A stretch of 53,116 nucleotides of DNA from Oscillospiraceae bacterium (GTDB taxonomy: Bacteria > Bacillota > Clostridia > Oscillospirales > Acutalibacteraceae), in the NCBI GenBank assembly GCA_015066385.1, contig SVOJ01000019.1, positions 1 through 53,116 of the forward strand, written 5' to 3'. The translations under genes and the position numbers were made by a program. Below, piece after piece: positions 1 to 48,416 of the stretch (position 1 is the stretch's first letter; every line of letters starts with the position of its first letter). The notes beneath the pieces are model-generated. The model saw only the letters and a list, made by a program, of their open reading frames with translations, was not told where the DNA came from and did not search any database.

Positions 1-107
1 GACTTAAGTCAGTAAGACCCCTCAAGGACTATGAGGTTGATAGGCTGCGTGTGTAAGCGTGGTGACACGTTCAGCTAAGCAGTACTAATAGGTCGAGGGC
101 TTGACCT
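1..107 (+). rRNA. 23S ribosomal RNA, 3' end (partial)
   Basis: The first ~107 bases match the conserved 3' terminus of bacterial 23S rRNA, including the GGTTGATAGGCTG and AGTACTAATAGGTCGAGG stretches of the last helices. The gene starts outside the window. The exact 3' end is estimated from the usual ending after the GGCTTGACC segment. No 5S gene follows within the next 180 bases; a terminator follows instead, so this 23S is not followed by 5S in the usual way. Confidence 0.95.
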
Positions 108-190
108 CTTGATTCAAGGTTCAAGTTTCTACACTTCCAGCTTCCCATCCATTGTTCAGTTTTCAGGGTGTATCCACATATTTGATTATT

Positions 191-35882: not shown

Positions 35883-36051
35883 ACCACACTAAATTAAATA
35901 TTTTTTTAACGAGCGGAGTGGGCATTTTTATTTTGGTAAAAATGCTGACTTCTATTTTCTCATTTCGCTTGTTGAAAATAAATTTAGTGTGGTAACTAAT
36001 CGAAGTCTGCATTTTTCGTGTGTGCTTACTTCGGTTTGTGCACACTTTTTT
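35883..36051 (+). ncRNA. Structured 5' leader with terminator (candidate attenuator)
   Basis: The leader folds into a long hairpin: ACCACACTAAATT (35883-35895) pairs perfectly with AATTTAGTGTGGT (35981-35993). Inside it AACGAGCG pairs with CGCTTGTT, and GCATTTTTA (35922) pairs with TAAAAATGC (35937). It is followed by a terminator-like hairpin GTGTGC (36020) / GCACAC (36040) with a TTCG-capped inner stem and TTTTTT, only ~12 bases before the AAGGAGG of the next gene. Bases 35998-36006 (AATCGAAGT) can instead pair with 36028-36036 (ACTTCGGTT), which would exclude the terminator. This is the layout of an attenuator or riboswitch, but I recognise no known class. Confidence 0.6.
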
Positions 36052-36072
36052 CTTTTTAAGGAGGAAATCGAA

Positions 36073-39000
36073 ATGAAAAACACAATCAGAAAAGCACTTT
36101 GCATGACCCTTGCGGTGTTGCTTTTACTCACCGTAGCCCCGCTTGCAGGATTTGTCGGATTGAGTCTTACTGCTGATGCGGCTACGGTTGTTGATTCCGG
36201 CAGTTGCGGTGCAAACGTAACCTGGACTTTTGACAGTGACGGTGTATTGACCATATCCGGAATAGGCAGGATGGACGATTATCTATCTTCGAATAATCCA
36301 AGTTGGGCACTTGAATCTTATTGTCCTCTTATTAAAACTGTTGTCATTGAAGACGGGGTGACACACATCGGTGAAGAGGCCTTTCAATTATGTAGTTCAA
36401 TGACTACCGTTTATATTCCGGACAGTGTAACAAGTATCGGAGATAATGCATTTGACCTTTGTAATGCCCTTGCCGAAATTGACCTGCCGGATGGAATGAT
36501 CAGTATAGGGCAAGGTCTCTTTGGGGGATGTCGTACATTGAAATCAATTAAAATTCCTGACACTGTACTGTGTATCGAATCGCATGCATTTACTGGTTGC
36601 ACCTCGCTGACAGATATTGAAATTCCGGACAATGTAGTGAGCATCGGGGATTCTGCTTTTCTCAATACAGCTTATTACAACGATGAAACCAATTGGGCAG
36701 ATGGTGTGTTGTATCTTGATAAACATTTGATTGGGGTAAAAGCCGATTTTGACGGTACATATAAATTTAACGATGAAACACAAACAATTTCCGACGATGT
36801 ATTCACCGACACTGCTTATTATAACGATGAAAACAATTGGACAGATGAGGTATTGTATGTCGCCAATCACCTTGTTGCCGCAAAAAAAGACCTGTCCGGT
36901 GCATATGTCATTCCGGAGGGCACAAAATCAATCGGCGGTTCTGCATTCAGCGGTTGTACAGCACTTACATCAGTTGATATTCCGGATAGCGTGATGAGCA
37001 TCGGGGCTTCTGCATTTTCCGATTGCAATGCACTTACTTCGATAGATATTCCGGCCGGTGTGATGGTGATTGGGGATTTTGCATTCTACAATTGTACATC
37101 CCTTACCGCAATTACCTTTCCTGAAAACAGCCGATTGGCGAGTATCGGAGATTGGGCATTTTCTGATTGTACCGCACTTGCTTCTGTTGAGATTCCGGGT
37201 AGTGTGATGAATATTGGGAGGTGGGCGTTTATCCGTTGCCAATCTCTTACCGCAATTGACCTTCCGGACGGTATTACAGAAATCAAACGTTCTGCATTCG
37301 CCGGTTGTAAATCCCTGCAAGTGATTGATATGCCGGAAAACTTAATGTATATCAACAACGCTGCGTTCGGCAATTGTTCCTCTCTTGCTTCCATTACGAT
37401 TCCGTCCGGGGTGATCAGCATTGATAGTGGAGCATTCCAATTGTGCACCGCGCTGATCTCTGTCACCATTCCGGACAGCGTAATGAGCATCGGTTCTTAT
37501 GCGTTCCGAGATTGCACCTCGTTGAATTCGGTTATCATCCCGGACAGCGTGTCGAGTATTGGTAATAGCGCGTTTTATGGTTGCACCTCTCTTGCTGAGA
37601 TCTCAATTCCTGATAGTGAGATCAATATCGCTGATGAGGCATTTGCCGGATGTACTTCCTTGACTTCTGTTACCATTCCGGACGGCGTGACAAGCATCGG
37701 CAATAAAACATTTGCCGGTTGCACTGCACTTGCTTCCATTGTTATTGCGGATAATGTAAAAAGCATCGGAGAAGATGTGTTCACCGATACTGCTTATTAT
37801 AATAATGAAAGCAATTGGACAGACGGTGTTTTGTATATAGACAATCATCTGATTAAGGCAAACGAAGATCTTGCCGATGAATATGCCATTAACGACGGTA
37901 CAAAATCAATTGCCGACGCTGCGTTCTCCGGTTGCAATTTGCTTACTTCAATTGACATTCCGGACAGCGTGACCAATATCGGCTATAATGCGTTCTATGA
38001 TTGTAAATCGATAAAATCCGTATATGGTACATCACTTACAGCATGGTTAAATTTTGATTTTGAAAATGGATATGCCAATCCGCTGTATAATGGTGCAGAT
38101 TTGTATTTGAACGGAACTCTTGTGACAGCGGTGGCGATTCCCGATACGATAACGGCAATTAAAGCTCATGTGTTTAGCGGATATACGCAACTCAACTCAA
38201 TTGATATCCCGAACGGTGTGACGAGCATCGGAGATAGGGCATTCAACAATTGTAAATCGCTTACCTCAATAGTCCTGCCGGACAGCGTAACGAGCATAAG
38301 TGGCGCATTCTGCAATTGCTCCTCGCTGACATCAATTAATATTCCGGATGGTGTGACGAGCATCGGAGGTGCTACATTTGCCGGTTGCAGTGCGCTTACT
38401 TCGATAGATATTCCGGGCGGTATGACGAGCATTGGGAATTCTGCATTTAGCAATTGCTCCTCGCTGACCTCAATTGATATTCCGGACGGTGTGACGAGCA
38501 TTGGGAATTCTGCATTTAGCAATTGCTCCTCGCTGACCTCAATTGATATTCCGGACGGTGTGACGAGTATCGAGGATTCTGCATTTCGCAATTGCTCCTC
38601 GCTGACCTCAATTGATATTCCGGACGGTGTGATGAACATTGGACATTCTGCATTTTACAATTGCTCCTCGCTGACTTCGGTCTCAATCCCGAACGGCGTG
38701 GCTGCAATCAATATGTACGCATTTTATTCTTGTGTTTCATTGCAAGAGATTTTTATTCCTGACAGAGTAACAAGCATCGGCATCTACGCATTTAAAGGCT
38801 GCTCCTCTTTGACAGATGTATATTATTCGGGCACGAGTGAACAATGGGATGCGTTGATTGCAAACAGCACATCAAAAGAAGGTTCCAATTCGGAATTATT
38901 CAATGCCAACATTCACTGCAATTATCAACTCGTTTCAGATTTTGTTGATACCGACACTATGTTTGTAACAGAAGACGGCAACATTGCAAGTCTTGTTGGC

Positions 39001-39354
39001 ACCACAGCCGATACTCTGCTTGCACAGGCGGGGAACGGTGCAATGGTGGTTAATAAAGACGGCAATGCCCTTTCCGGTGAAGCCAAAATCGGCACCGGTG
39101 CGGTTGTGACCCTTGCTGACGGAACGGAATATACCATCATCGTTCCCGGGGACGTGGACGGTGATGCCGCCATCACTGCCGGCGATGCGAGAGCTGTTCT
39201 GCGTGCATCCGTTGATCTGGAACCGCTGGAAGGTATTTTCCTTACCGCCGCCAAAGTAGAGGGCAATGAAAACATCAGCGCCGGCGATGCAAGACTGATT
39301 CTGCGCGCCTCGGTCGGTCTGGAAGACCCCGCCGACTGGCTGACAAAATTCTGA
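36073..39354 (+). CDS. BspA-like leucine-rich-repeat surface protein with dockerin-like end
   Basis: A 1093-residue secreted protein. A signal peptide (~1-35, ending ADAATV) is followed by a CGANVTWTFDSDGVLTISG module and about thirty 23-residue LRR_5 (BspA/TpLRR) repeats of the form SIGxxAFxxCxxLTSIDIPDxVT. Three repeats are interrupted by near-identical inserts VFTDTAYYN...WTDGVLY. The end (~1025-1090) is dockerin-like: GDVDGDAAITAGDARAVLRA has a good calcium loop, but the second, VEGNENISAGDARLILRA, lacks the first acidic positions. Such proteins bind host or substrate surfaces. The start at 36073 follows AAGGAGG; an in-frame ATG at 35989 lies within the leader hairpin. No sortase signal is seen. 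Confidence 0.9.
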   Translation: MKNTIRKALCMTLAVLLLLTVAPLAGFVGLSLTADAATVVDSGSCGANVTWTFDSDGVLTISGIGRMDDYLSSNNPSWALESYCPLIKTVVIEDGVTHIGEEAFQLCSSMTTVYIPDSVTSIGDNAFDLCNALAEIDLPDGMISIGQGLFGGCRTLKSIKIPDTVLCIESHAFTGCTSLTDIEIPDNVVSIGDSAFLNTAYYNDETNWADGVLYLDKHLIGVKADFDGTYKFNDETQTISDDVFTDTAYYNDENNWTDEVLYVANHLVAAKKDLSGAYVIPEGTKSIGGSAFSGCTALTSVDIPDSVMSIGASAFSDCNALTSIDIPAGVMVIGDFAFYNCTSLTAITFPENSRLASIGDWAFSDCTALASVEIPGSVMNIGRWAFIRCQSLTAIDLPDGITEIKRSAFAGCKSLQVIDMPENLMYINNAAFGNCSSLASITIPSGVISIDSGAFQLCTALISVTIPDSVMSIGSYAFRDCTSLNSVIIPDSVSSIGNSAFYGCTSLAEISIPDSEINIADEAFAGCTSLTSVTIPDGVTSIGNKTFAGCTALASIVIADNVKSIGEDVFTDTAYYNNESNWTDGVLYIDNHLIKANEDLADEYAINDGTKSIADAAFSGCNLLTSIDIPDSVTNIGYNAFYDCKSIKSVYGTSLTAWLNFDFENGYANPLYNGADLYLNGTLVTAVAIPDTITAIKAHVFSGYTQLNSIDIPNGVTSIGDRAFNNCKSLTSIVLPDSVTSISGAFCNCSSLTSINIPDGVTSIGGATFAGCSALTSIDIPGGMTSIGNSAFSNCSSLTSIDIPDGVTSIGNSAFSNCSSLTSIDIPDGVTSIEDSAFRNCSSLTSIDIPDGVMNIGHSAFYNCSSLTSVSIPNGVAAINMYAFYSCVSLQEIFIPDRVTSIGIYAFKGCSSLTDVYYSGTSEQWDALIANSTSKEGSNSELFNANIHCNYQLVSDFVDTDTMFVTEDGNIASLVGTTADTLLAQAGNGAMVVNKDGNALSGEAKIGTGAVVTLADGTEYTIIVPGDVDGDAAITAGDARAVLRASVDLEPLEGIFLTAAKVEGNENISAGDARLILRASVGLEDPADWLTKF
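38431..38637 (+). repeat. Three 69-bp tandem repeats in the LRR region
   Basis: Units starting at 38431, 38500 and 38569 encode three successive LRR units of 23 residues. Units one and two differ only at their last base, and the third differs at a few positions. Such identity implies recent duplication by slippage or recombination, so repeat number may vary between strains. Confidence 0.9.
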
Positions 39355-39380
39355 AACAAAAAAAACACCCGAAACAGGTG

Positions 39381-39409
39381 TTGACAGAATGCAGAAATGT
39401 TGATATAAT
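39381..39409 (+). promoter_or_regulatory. Perfect consensus promoter of small RNA
   Basis: TTGACA (39381) and TATAAT (39404) with a 17-bp spacer, a full sigma-A consensus, lie 27 bases after the BspA-like stop codon. No plus-strand gene follows; the product is the small RNA at ~39415-39508. AACACC-N6-GGTGTT upstream (39365-39382) may end the BspA transcript. Confidence 0.85.
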
Positions 39410-39414
39410 ATAAA

Positions 39415-39508
39415 TGAACAAGGCAGACCGATAGACGGTTAGCCTTCCATATCAGTTAAGAAATAACTACCCTGATTTTGGAAGTGTGAGGGCGGTTATT
39501 TCTTTTTT
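39415..39508 (+). ncRNA. Small RNA, candidate type I antitoxin
   Basis: A ~94-base transcript predicted between the consensus promoter and a strong terminator. It has a 5' hairpin AAGGC-AG-ACCG-N5-CGGT-TA-GCCTT (39420-39446). The 3' end is an intrinsic terminator, AAGAAATAAC-TA-CCCT (39458-39473) pairing with AGGG-CG-GTTATTTCTT (39489-39504), then TTTT. The right arm overlaps, in antisense, the last codons and stop of the small hydrophobic ORF on the other strand. That 3'-to-3' overlap through a shared hairpin is the arrangement of several Gram-positive type I toxin-antitoxin pairs. Not verified by RNA data. Confidence 0.65.
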
Positions 39509-39597
39509 GTTTCAAAAATATGTTTACACACAATGAAAACAAATTCTGCAATTGCAACAAGAAGTCCTAATAATGCAATAAATAATTGCTTCGCCAC
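39496..39597 (-). CDS. Small hydrophobic peptide, candidate type I toxin
   Basis: A 33-codon ORF (GTG start; a TTG at 39612 would give 38) too short for standard gene calling. It begins MAKQLF, has one 18-residue membrane segment (IALLGLLVAIAEFVFIVC) and ends with a charged tail KHIFETKKK. This is the look of Fst/TxpA/CD2517.1-like type I toxins that damage membranes. Its stop codon lies in the arm of the terminator hairpin of the convergent small RNA. It starts right after the terminator of the GPH transporter, so its promoter must lie within or before the end of that gene, which I could not locate. That missing promoter is the main doubt. Confidence 0.5.
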   Translation of the reverse strand: MAKQLFIALLGLLVAIAEFVFIVCKHIFETKKK

Positions 39598-39605
39598 GAT
39601 ATTGA

Positions 39606-39643
39606 CAAACAAAAACGGAACCTGCAACGCAATGCAGATTCCG
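39606..39643 (-). terminator. Intrinsic terminator after GPH transporter
   Basis: On the minus strand CGGAATCTGCA-N6-TGCAGGTTCCG is followed by TTTTTGTTTGT. It lies 17 bases after the transporter stop codon and just ahead of the small hydrophobic ORF. Confidence 0.88.
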
Positions 39644-48293: not shown

Positions 48294-48300
48294 CGTTTAT

Positions 48301-48416
48301 GTCGGCGACGACCTATTTTCCCGGGCAGCTTCCCGCCAAGTATTTTCGGCACGATTGAGCTTAACTACCGTGTTCGGGATGGGAACGGGTGGAACCTCAA
48401 TGTTATAGACACCGAC
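48301..48416 (-). rRNA. 5S ribosomal RNA (orphan)
   Basis: A 116-base 5S gene. The conserved CCCGTTCCCATCCCGAACACGG and TTAAGCTC parts are present (read on the minus strand), and the closing helix GTCGGTGTC / GACGACGCCGAC-like ends are complementary. No 23S or tRNA gene adjoins it; the nearest rRNA is the 23S end at 1-107 on the other strand 48 kb away, which lacks a 5S. It has its own promoter and terminator. Confidence 0.96.

Follow-up and report, generated by a model that had tools for sequence, protein, structure and literature searches.

A promoter that matches the consensus in full and drives no gene on its own strand, set against a short hydrophobic frame that runs towards it on the other strand, raises the question of whether the two make up a type I toxin-antitoxin pair and whether such a pair is still complete. 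This arrangement is found at 39.4-39.6 kb of the window, the term used here for the whole 53,116-nucleotide stretch of Oscillospiraceae DNA that was analysed, between a long BspA-type gene and a sugar transporter gene. The locus is probably one decayed copy of a multicopy family of type I toxin-antitoxin modules, in which the toxin mRNA would be controlled in the manner of bsrG/SR4.

Organization of the Locus

The sequence-only reading had described a full-consensus promoter, a small RNA of ~94 nt with a 5' hairpin and a terminator and, on the opposite strand, a 33-codon hydrophobic frame with a lysine tail whose stop codon lies in an arm of that terminator. All of these parts were recovered (Table 1). 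The same two hexamers and the same 17-nt spacer precede all 12 copies of the RNA in the genome, and the predicted RNA is ~92-93 nt long, its start being placed from the promoter. The opposite frame contains one hydrophobic stretch (hydropathy mean over 17 residues, 2.85) and ends in KKK, with its stop within the complement of the RNA terminator arm. On the minus strand, a hairpin followed by a T-run, present in 11 of the 12 own-genome copies and absent in L012, forms a putative terminator, which shows that the toxin-strand transcript would end past the RNA promoter. In the region alone, neither promoter-like sites (3 versus 2.2 in shuffled sequences) nor terminator-like sites (1 versus 2.5) are enriched; since such sites are no commoner than in shuffles, it is the repeat copies that carry the weight against a chance arrangement. 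Rfam, searched at the gathering threshold, has no family at the locus.

Table 1. Features of the locus and its surroundings, with positions in the window
Feature	Position	Strand	Basis or remark
Antitoxin RNA promoter, TTGACA-17-TATAAT	39381..39409	+	12/12 consensus bases; -35 at 39381-39386, -10 at 39404-39409
Antitoxin small RNA (predicted)	39416..39508	+	Scores 99.2 bits with R1, being among the 12 rows of that model
RNA 5' hairpin, loop ATAGA	39420..39446	+	Consensus fold of 12 copies
RNA terminator, stem-loop 39459-39503 plus U-tract	39459..39509	+	Complement codes for the toxin frame's KKK end and stop
Toxin-strand terminator (putative)	39364..39382	-	Overlaps the complement of the -35 box
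Toxin remnant, 33-codon frame, GTG at 39597, stop 39496-39498	39496..39597	-	Paralogue match and copy alignment
Terminator-like hairpin plus T-tract of the sugar transporter gene	39607..39643	-	Read in the sequence; conserved in G004
BspA-type leucine-rich repeat protein gene	35989..39354		PF13306, 726 bits
23S rRNA gene, 3' end	1..108		At the contig start
5S rRNA gene	48300..48416	-	

The frame in the window lacks the N-terminus, SD, ATG, leader and promoter of intact paralogues. Its homology to an intact paralogue begins at residue 5 (87%) or, with the toxin model, at model position 8, and residues 7-33 are identical to residues 8-34 of the L003 peptide. Directly upstream, the terminator-like hairpin of the transporter gene, which was missed by the consensus scan, separates the transporter from the remnant. 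The weak point noted when the pair was first proposed, namely that no promoter for the peptide is visible and that its frame begins right at the transporter terminator, is thus explained by 5' truncation of the toxin gene. In the relative G004, the 3' flank of the transporter matches the window from 39605 outward, whereas nothing in the window matches the remaining 183 bases of the G004 contig beyond that point. An element that would have arrived, or been cut, at ~39605 with the 5' part of the toxin missing is consistent with this. The locus thus has the look of a solitary antitoxin gene next to what is left of a toxin gene; it would be a working pair only if read-through, together with a start lacking an SD, yielded some peptide. 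As to the type I layout that had been proposed for it, the assignment holds in that the RNA and the peptide belong to a large set of bsrG/SR4-like convergent modules, and fails in that the peptide gene at this site is 5'-truncated.

The C-terminus of the neighbouring BspA-type protein is similar to a type I dockerin, scoring 20.0 bits, slightly under the cut-off of 22.9, and the genome has further occurrences of short stretches of the DNA that encodes this C-terminus.

Intact Modules in the Same Genome

When the own genome (52 contigs, 3.17 Mb in all) is searched at the DNA level, the stretch ~39359-39580 is found at 12 sites, the window included, with 74-100% identity, alongside five further, shorter matches. 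The RNA model R1 was built from these 12 RNAs, so that the 80-102 bits that they reach are scores of the model's own rows; the next match in the genome scores 33.9 bits. A full toxin gene, with ATG, SD and 33-35 codons, lies opposite nine of the 12 RNAs. The other three, namely those of the window, L006 and L008, are orphans that keep promoter and fold intact (93.7-99.2 bits). Two further states of decay are represented by L011, with a full toxin, ATG and SD and with the normal leader and promoter lost, and by L013, a toxin N-terminus without RNA that has lost the C-terminal half.

The aligned copies share a set of conserved parts. The toxin leader starts GGGCAAGGCAGACC...ACGGTAGGCGGTTACCTTCC, a CCCTCC...GGAGGG hairpin holds the SD, and the ATG and the peptide come after it; the toxin stop is located in the antitoxin terminator arm, and beyond it the toxin strand continues through the complement of the whole RNA and of its promoter before reaching the terminator. 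A promoter-like TTGCAA-17-TATAAT is found on the toxin strand of L003. The 5' 33 nt of the RNA are almost invariant among the copies, and all 18 aligned peptides end in KKK. In the intact peptides of L002 and of the relative L098, hydropathy means over 17 residues are 2.75 and 2.51, as in a putative membrane helix.

The toxins of the genus are under coding constraint, with a pooled pN/pS of 0.45 when the last five codons are left out and pN below pS in 101 of 108 pairs, which are non-independent. A check by toxin profile and RNA in four genus genomes (G000, G003, G004 and G007) found the RNA with every full-length toxin (21 of 21, a count that leaves out the contig-edge piece G007:C86:2-46, E 0.27), and 6 of the 27 RNAs are present without a full toxin. 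Such a direction of loss fits a toxin that could not outlive its antitoxin, in a comparison where the numbers are small and where loss of the RNA would usually also remove the overlapping toxin C-terminus.

Distribution and Peptide Types

The search of related genomes that had been suggested for the RNA gave copies above 60 bits in five of the 26 genomes of the genus (G000, G003, G004, G007 and G012). In the family, covariance-model matches, listed to E<=1e-6 and fetched in part, occur in 43 of the 397 sampled genomes (the own genome included) and in 33 of 135 genera. A phylum sample has matches in 5 of 398 genomes, three of them outside the family; three phylum loci were found with a looser RNA pattern. 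Applied to a collection of named genomes, an RNA-only pattern matched at least 110 stretches, with 80 loci listed and used, and among the matches listed are Oscillospiraceae, Ruminococcus, Lachnospiraceae (also Eisenbergiella tayi and Pseudobutyrivibrio), Emergencia and Anaerovibrio lipolyticus.

It had also been proposed to look for the peptide wherever the RNA occurs. The own, genus and family genomes provided 98 parsed sites (95 matches, less 4 duplicates and 5 that hit the reverse strand of the same modules, plus the 12 own copies), and at 69 of these an ATG frame with SD lies opposite the RNA; 68 of the 69 end in K, with Lys in any case a likely last residue where a frame stops inside a U-tract's complement. 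The remaining 29 sites are without such a frame, and some of the weak ones may be false. The hairpin core CCGATAGACGG is present at 66 of the 98 sites. The RNA-pattern set gave a comparable picture: 72 of its 90 sites have an ATG frame with SD and K is the last residue in every one of them, while 8 have no ORF and 10 more no ATG with SD.

The peptides that face the RNA are of several types, represented by MVTYEELF..KKK (the type of L098 and the similar L085), MEYLVMFAVILVFATGYIYTIKKK, MSIADLIAVLSFGIGCF.. and MTWNDFFQF... For the last three types, neither PHROGs nor NCBIfam has a significant match, and the two of them searched against Pfam (MSIADLI.. was left out) have none there. Weak links below the NCBIfam cut-off connect the L199 peptide to ComI (5.5e-6) and the L098 peptide to PepG1 (5.7e-4). 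The RNA pattern also matches three IMG/VR viral contigs (L297, L298 and L299), each with at least one complete module. A tblastn search of plasmid and phage collections with the 28-residue peptide of one relative, which is a weak test, gave no match. No description of this RNA family was found in the open-licence literature, surveyed mostly by title listing.

Some modules stand in tandem, as two or three copies ~0.35-0.4 kb apart (L136, L140, L134, L101 and L205), and those of L140 carry identical peptides. A T-box leader-like element lies close to the module of L098 (2028-2275; 75.6 bits, below the 93-bit cut-off). The viral contigs L297 and L298 share one peptide, which is one residue different from that of L186, a contig labelled as Melainabacteria.

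Predicted Pairing between the Ends of the Toxin mRNA

The start of the toxin mRNA leader is a same-sense near-copy of the 5' end of the antitoxin RNA, and it is therefore complementary to the 3' end of the mRNA itself. In the predicted folds, the first 45 nt pair with the last 50 nt in all 58 modules folded, over 18-37 bp (median 28); these 58 are the 69 modules with ATG and SD minus 11 whose leader or RNA anchor was unrecognised, some leaders having been replaced. Removal of duplicates left 56 modules for an energy comparison. The closing duplex has -45.3 kcal/mol, versus -33.2 with swapped 3' ends, and 0 of 20000 permutations were as good, with swapped-partner controls that leave some relatedness in place. 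Ranked against the others, the module's own 3' end comes first in 24 of the 56 and within the top five in 39. The corresponding values of the RNA-pattern set are -46.1 and -33.3, with z below -3 in 69 of 71 modules; the 58 pattern-set modules that lie outside the first set (14 of 72 are shared) give -45.1 versus -33.1 and again 0 of 20000.

This pairing is also accompanied by covariation. An arm of 11 nt varies in sequence from species to species, but in step between leader and RNA. With one module taken per distinct arm and the best register fitted in data and control alike, at least 10 of the 11 positions are paired in 48 of the 54 arms, against a mean of 7.1 and a maximum of 15 in 500 swaps. 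Simple gene conversion between the arms was considered and fits poorly, because fixed differences remain between them (an insertion, and A-to-G changes giving G-U pairs).

The mean probability that the SD is unpaired, over the 58 modules, is predicted at 0.12 in the coding part alone, 0.17 in the full mRNA and 0.12 with the 3' end blocked, and the highest single value is 0.57. The SD is more open by over 0.2 in the full mRNA than in the coding part alone in 5 of the 58 modules, and less open in 1. Free and antitoxin-blocked mRNA thus hardly differ in predicted SD opening; accessibility does not distinguish an ON from an OFF role for the closure, and such calculations agree only weakly with SD closing of the bsrG kind.

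An RNA pseudoknot between the linker and the terminator loop was rejected as a candidate: none of 80 modules had its own loop as the best partner, and the median rank of that loop was 22.5. Linker-loop pairs average -8.5 kcal/mol with the own partner versus -6.8 with swapped ones (0 of 20000 permutations).

Comparison with Known Type I Systems

The closest known system is bsrG/SR4 of the Bacillus phage SPbeta (TxpA/BsrG group; Rfam RF01412). Both bsrG/SR4 and the modules have a convergent 3' overlap, a short hydrophobic peptide ending in KKK, an SD held in a hairpin and an mRNA closed from its 5' end to its 3' end, and in both the KKK-stop is the complement of the U-run behind a hairpin of the opposite strand. 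The bsrG locus of SPBc2 (L318) folds with a 5'-3' closing helix of 36 pairs and an SD hairpin, in a fold that is the best of 81 choices of start and length, the start being unmapped. Unlike bsrG/SR4, the modules have the shared hairpin core, 12 dispersed copies and several peptide types on one RNA scaffold, and their RNA, at ~92 nt, is shorter than the 180-nt SR4.

Searches with the Rfam BsrG model point in the same direction. Eight of the 12 matches in the own genome at E<=10, including the best five, fall on the toxin strand of modules or L013, and none of the 12 is over the cut-off; in a control with 14 named genomes the model matches in seven, and over the cut-off in one. At the same E-value, 13 of 20 loci match, all 13 on the toxin strand of the module, and seven have no match. 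The best score over the loci is 30.4 bits, below the Rfam cut-off of 55 bits, and no Rfam family reaches its cut-off over any module. From their sequences, the modules can be read as a compact, multicopy BsrG/SR4-like type I family that is absent from Rfam. For SR4, PMC6562991 reports binding to the bsrG 3' end, where the 3' part of helix P1 is also covered; SD sequestration grows from 4 to 8 bp, and decay, initiated by RNase III, is promoted. Given that reported action and the likeness to bsrG, the same sequence of events is expected here.

The txpA/RatA and bsrE/SR5 pairs of Bacillus subtilis are alike by description, with an antitoxin that binds at the 3' end and a small membrane peptide. 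PMC6562991 gives their complementarity as 100-140 bp and names Bacillus, Paenibacillus, Lactobacillus, Halobacillus and Enterococcus, and PMC6563280 mentions that Clostridium bolteae has a TxpA-like sequence. The cut-off of the Pfam profile PF16935 Hol_Tox (23.3) is passed by the peptides of two relatives, L098 (27.9) and L085 (24.2). Three of five intact own-genome peptides score 11.0-13.9 with this profile and two have no match, none being over the cut-off; of two genus-relative peptides, one scores 16.7 and one has no match. Across the family, 4 of 100 genomes match Hol_Tox, one of them over the cut-off (29.9), and G000 has no match at E<=0.01. Several pairs of Clostridioides difficile (CD2517.1-RCd8 and others) are also similar as described in PMC6563280, with a convergent small RNA, a membrane peptide whose tail is rich in Lys and many copies per genome. 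Long-distance pairing between the 5' and 3' ends of the toxin mRNA is a feature in common with aapA1/IsoA1 of Helicobacter pylori, for which PMC8167048 describes 5'-3' pairing that shuts the SD and 3' processing that opens it. In hok/Sok, which also has a coupled leader peptide, the antisense RNA targets the leader, whereas the module RNA is antisense to the 3' end of the mRNA, and Fst/par of pAD1 has complementary direct repeats in both RNAs, whereas the 5' ends of the modules are same-sense copies.

Proposed Mechanism and Alternative Explanations

The sequences themselves display conserved parts, a potential for pairing, covariation and constraint on the coding frame; we infer in addition that the modules are transcribed, that their RNAs bind each other, that the peptides are toxic and that the toxin mRNA is subject to decay. 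An intact toxin mRNA would start from its own promoter with a structured leader, followed by an SD hairpin and a Lys-tailed membrane peptide of ~21-37 codons; its further course would cover the complement of the antitoxin RNA, ~92 nt long, whose own strong promoter lies in that 3' region. The leader, a near-copy of the antitoxin 5' end, would let the mRNA close its 5' end to its 3' end. The antitoxin, as the perfect complement of the mRNA 3' end, would displace the leader and form a duplex of up to ~92 bp, which would lead to decay of the mRNA, with RNase III as the expected nuclease, and to closing of the SD, in the way SR4 acts on bsrG. In the window, the RNA half is intact and the 5' end of the toxin has been lost, leaving an orphan RNA that might bind the mRNAs of paralogous toxins in trans.

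A broader version of this scheme is advanced here tentatively, as a possibility. In it, the antitoxin would mimic the leader, both would compete for one 3' end, and the leader would be the weaker competitor owing to G-U wobbles at fixed places (CGGTAGGCGGTT vs CGATAGACGGTT), so that control would amount to strand exchange between the cis and the trans copy of a single sequence; many Clostridia would have loaded the scaffold with different peptides, and solo antitoxins like that of the window would stand guard in trans against paralogues.

That the orphan RNA of the window has been retained for its own sake, as a protective (anti-addiction) RNA acting in trans on the other copies or on incoming elements, is a rather unlikely explanation. 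It would agree with the preserved promoter and fold of the three own-genome orphans, with the near-invariant 5' end of the RNA and with the duplexes of -102 to -139 kcal/mol predicted between the window RNA and eight paralogous mRNAs. The eight cognate pairs (without L011), however, form stronger predicted duplexes, of -168 to -187 kcal/mol, and trans action on the paralogues is thus possible in the model and weaker than cognate action. The remnant is also near-identical to an intact paralogue, so that its decay may be just recent, the orphan L113 of G004 has a decayed promoter, and the antitoxins of C. difficile are characterized in PMC6563280, where it treats them, as mostly cognate-specific.

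It is very unlikely that the window copy is itself a working type I pair, with an mRNA made by read-through of the transporter terminator and a toxic peptide started at GTG. The frame has indeed remained open and hydrophobic, and it keeps the Lys tail and the residues identical to those of L003, but it has no SD, ATG or leader, a terminator-like hairpin with a T-rich tail stands directly upstream, and all nine intact copies of the genome have ATG and SD. The 12 dispersed copies, and the homology of the transporter flank to G004 that stops beside the element, might instead be taken as marks of a small mobile or regulatory element (MITE-like) with an incidental peptide, a highly improbable reading in view of the purifying selection on the peptide and of the SD-ATG frames found across many genera despite the differing peptide types. 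An Fst/par-type antitoxin (RNAII of pAD1), which would likewise be a small RNA that converges on a hydrophobic peptide gene and has terminator sequence in common with it, is hardly credible, as the par direct repeats of the two RNAs pair together in the account given by PMC4147584, whereas the module repeats are inverted, so that both RNAs start alike, and no Fst profile is matched by the peptides searched against Pfam and NCBIfam.

Significance

The reading of the locus as a decayed copy of a bsrG/SR4-like family bears on how such systems are thought to be distributed. BsrG-type systems are placed mainly in Bacilli in the corresponding section of PMC6562991, and among Clostridia a 2019 review credits C. 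difficile alone with type I systems that have been validated by experiment (PMC6563280). The lysine tail of the toxin is the complement of the antitoxin terminator U-tract, which suggests one reason for the lysine ends of these peptides; the Lys tails of convergent type I toxins, SPBc2 bsrG included, may be by-products of antitoxin terminators. A compact RNA scaffold that carries several peptide types in many gut Clostridia, with up to 12 copies per genome, would yield a covariance model for annotation, and its intact, decayed and solo copies would form a natural collection in which to study cross-talk, addiction and the role of chromosomal type I systems.
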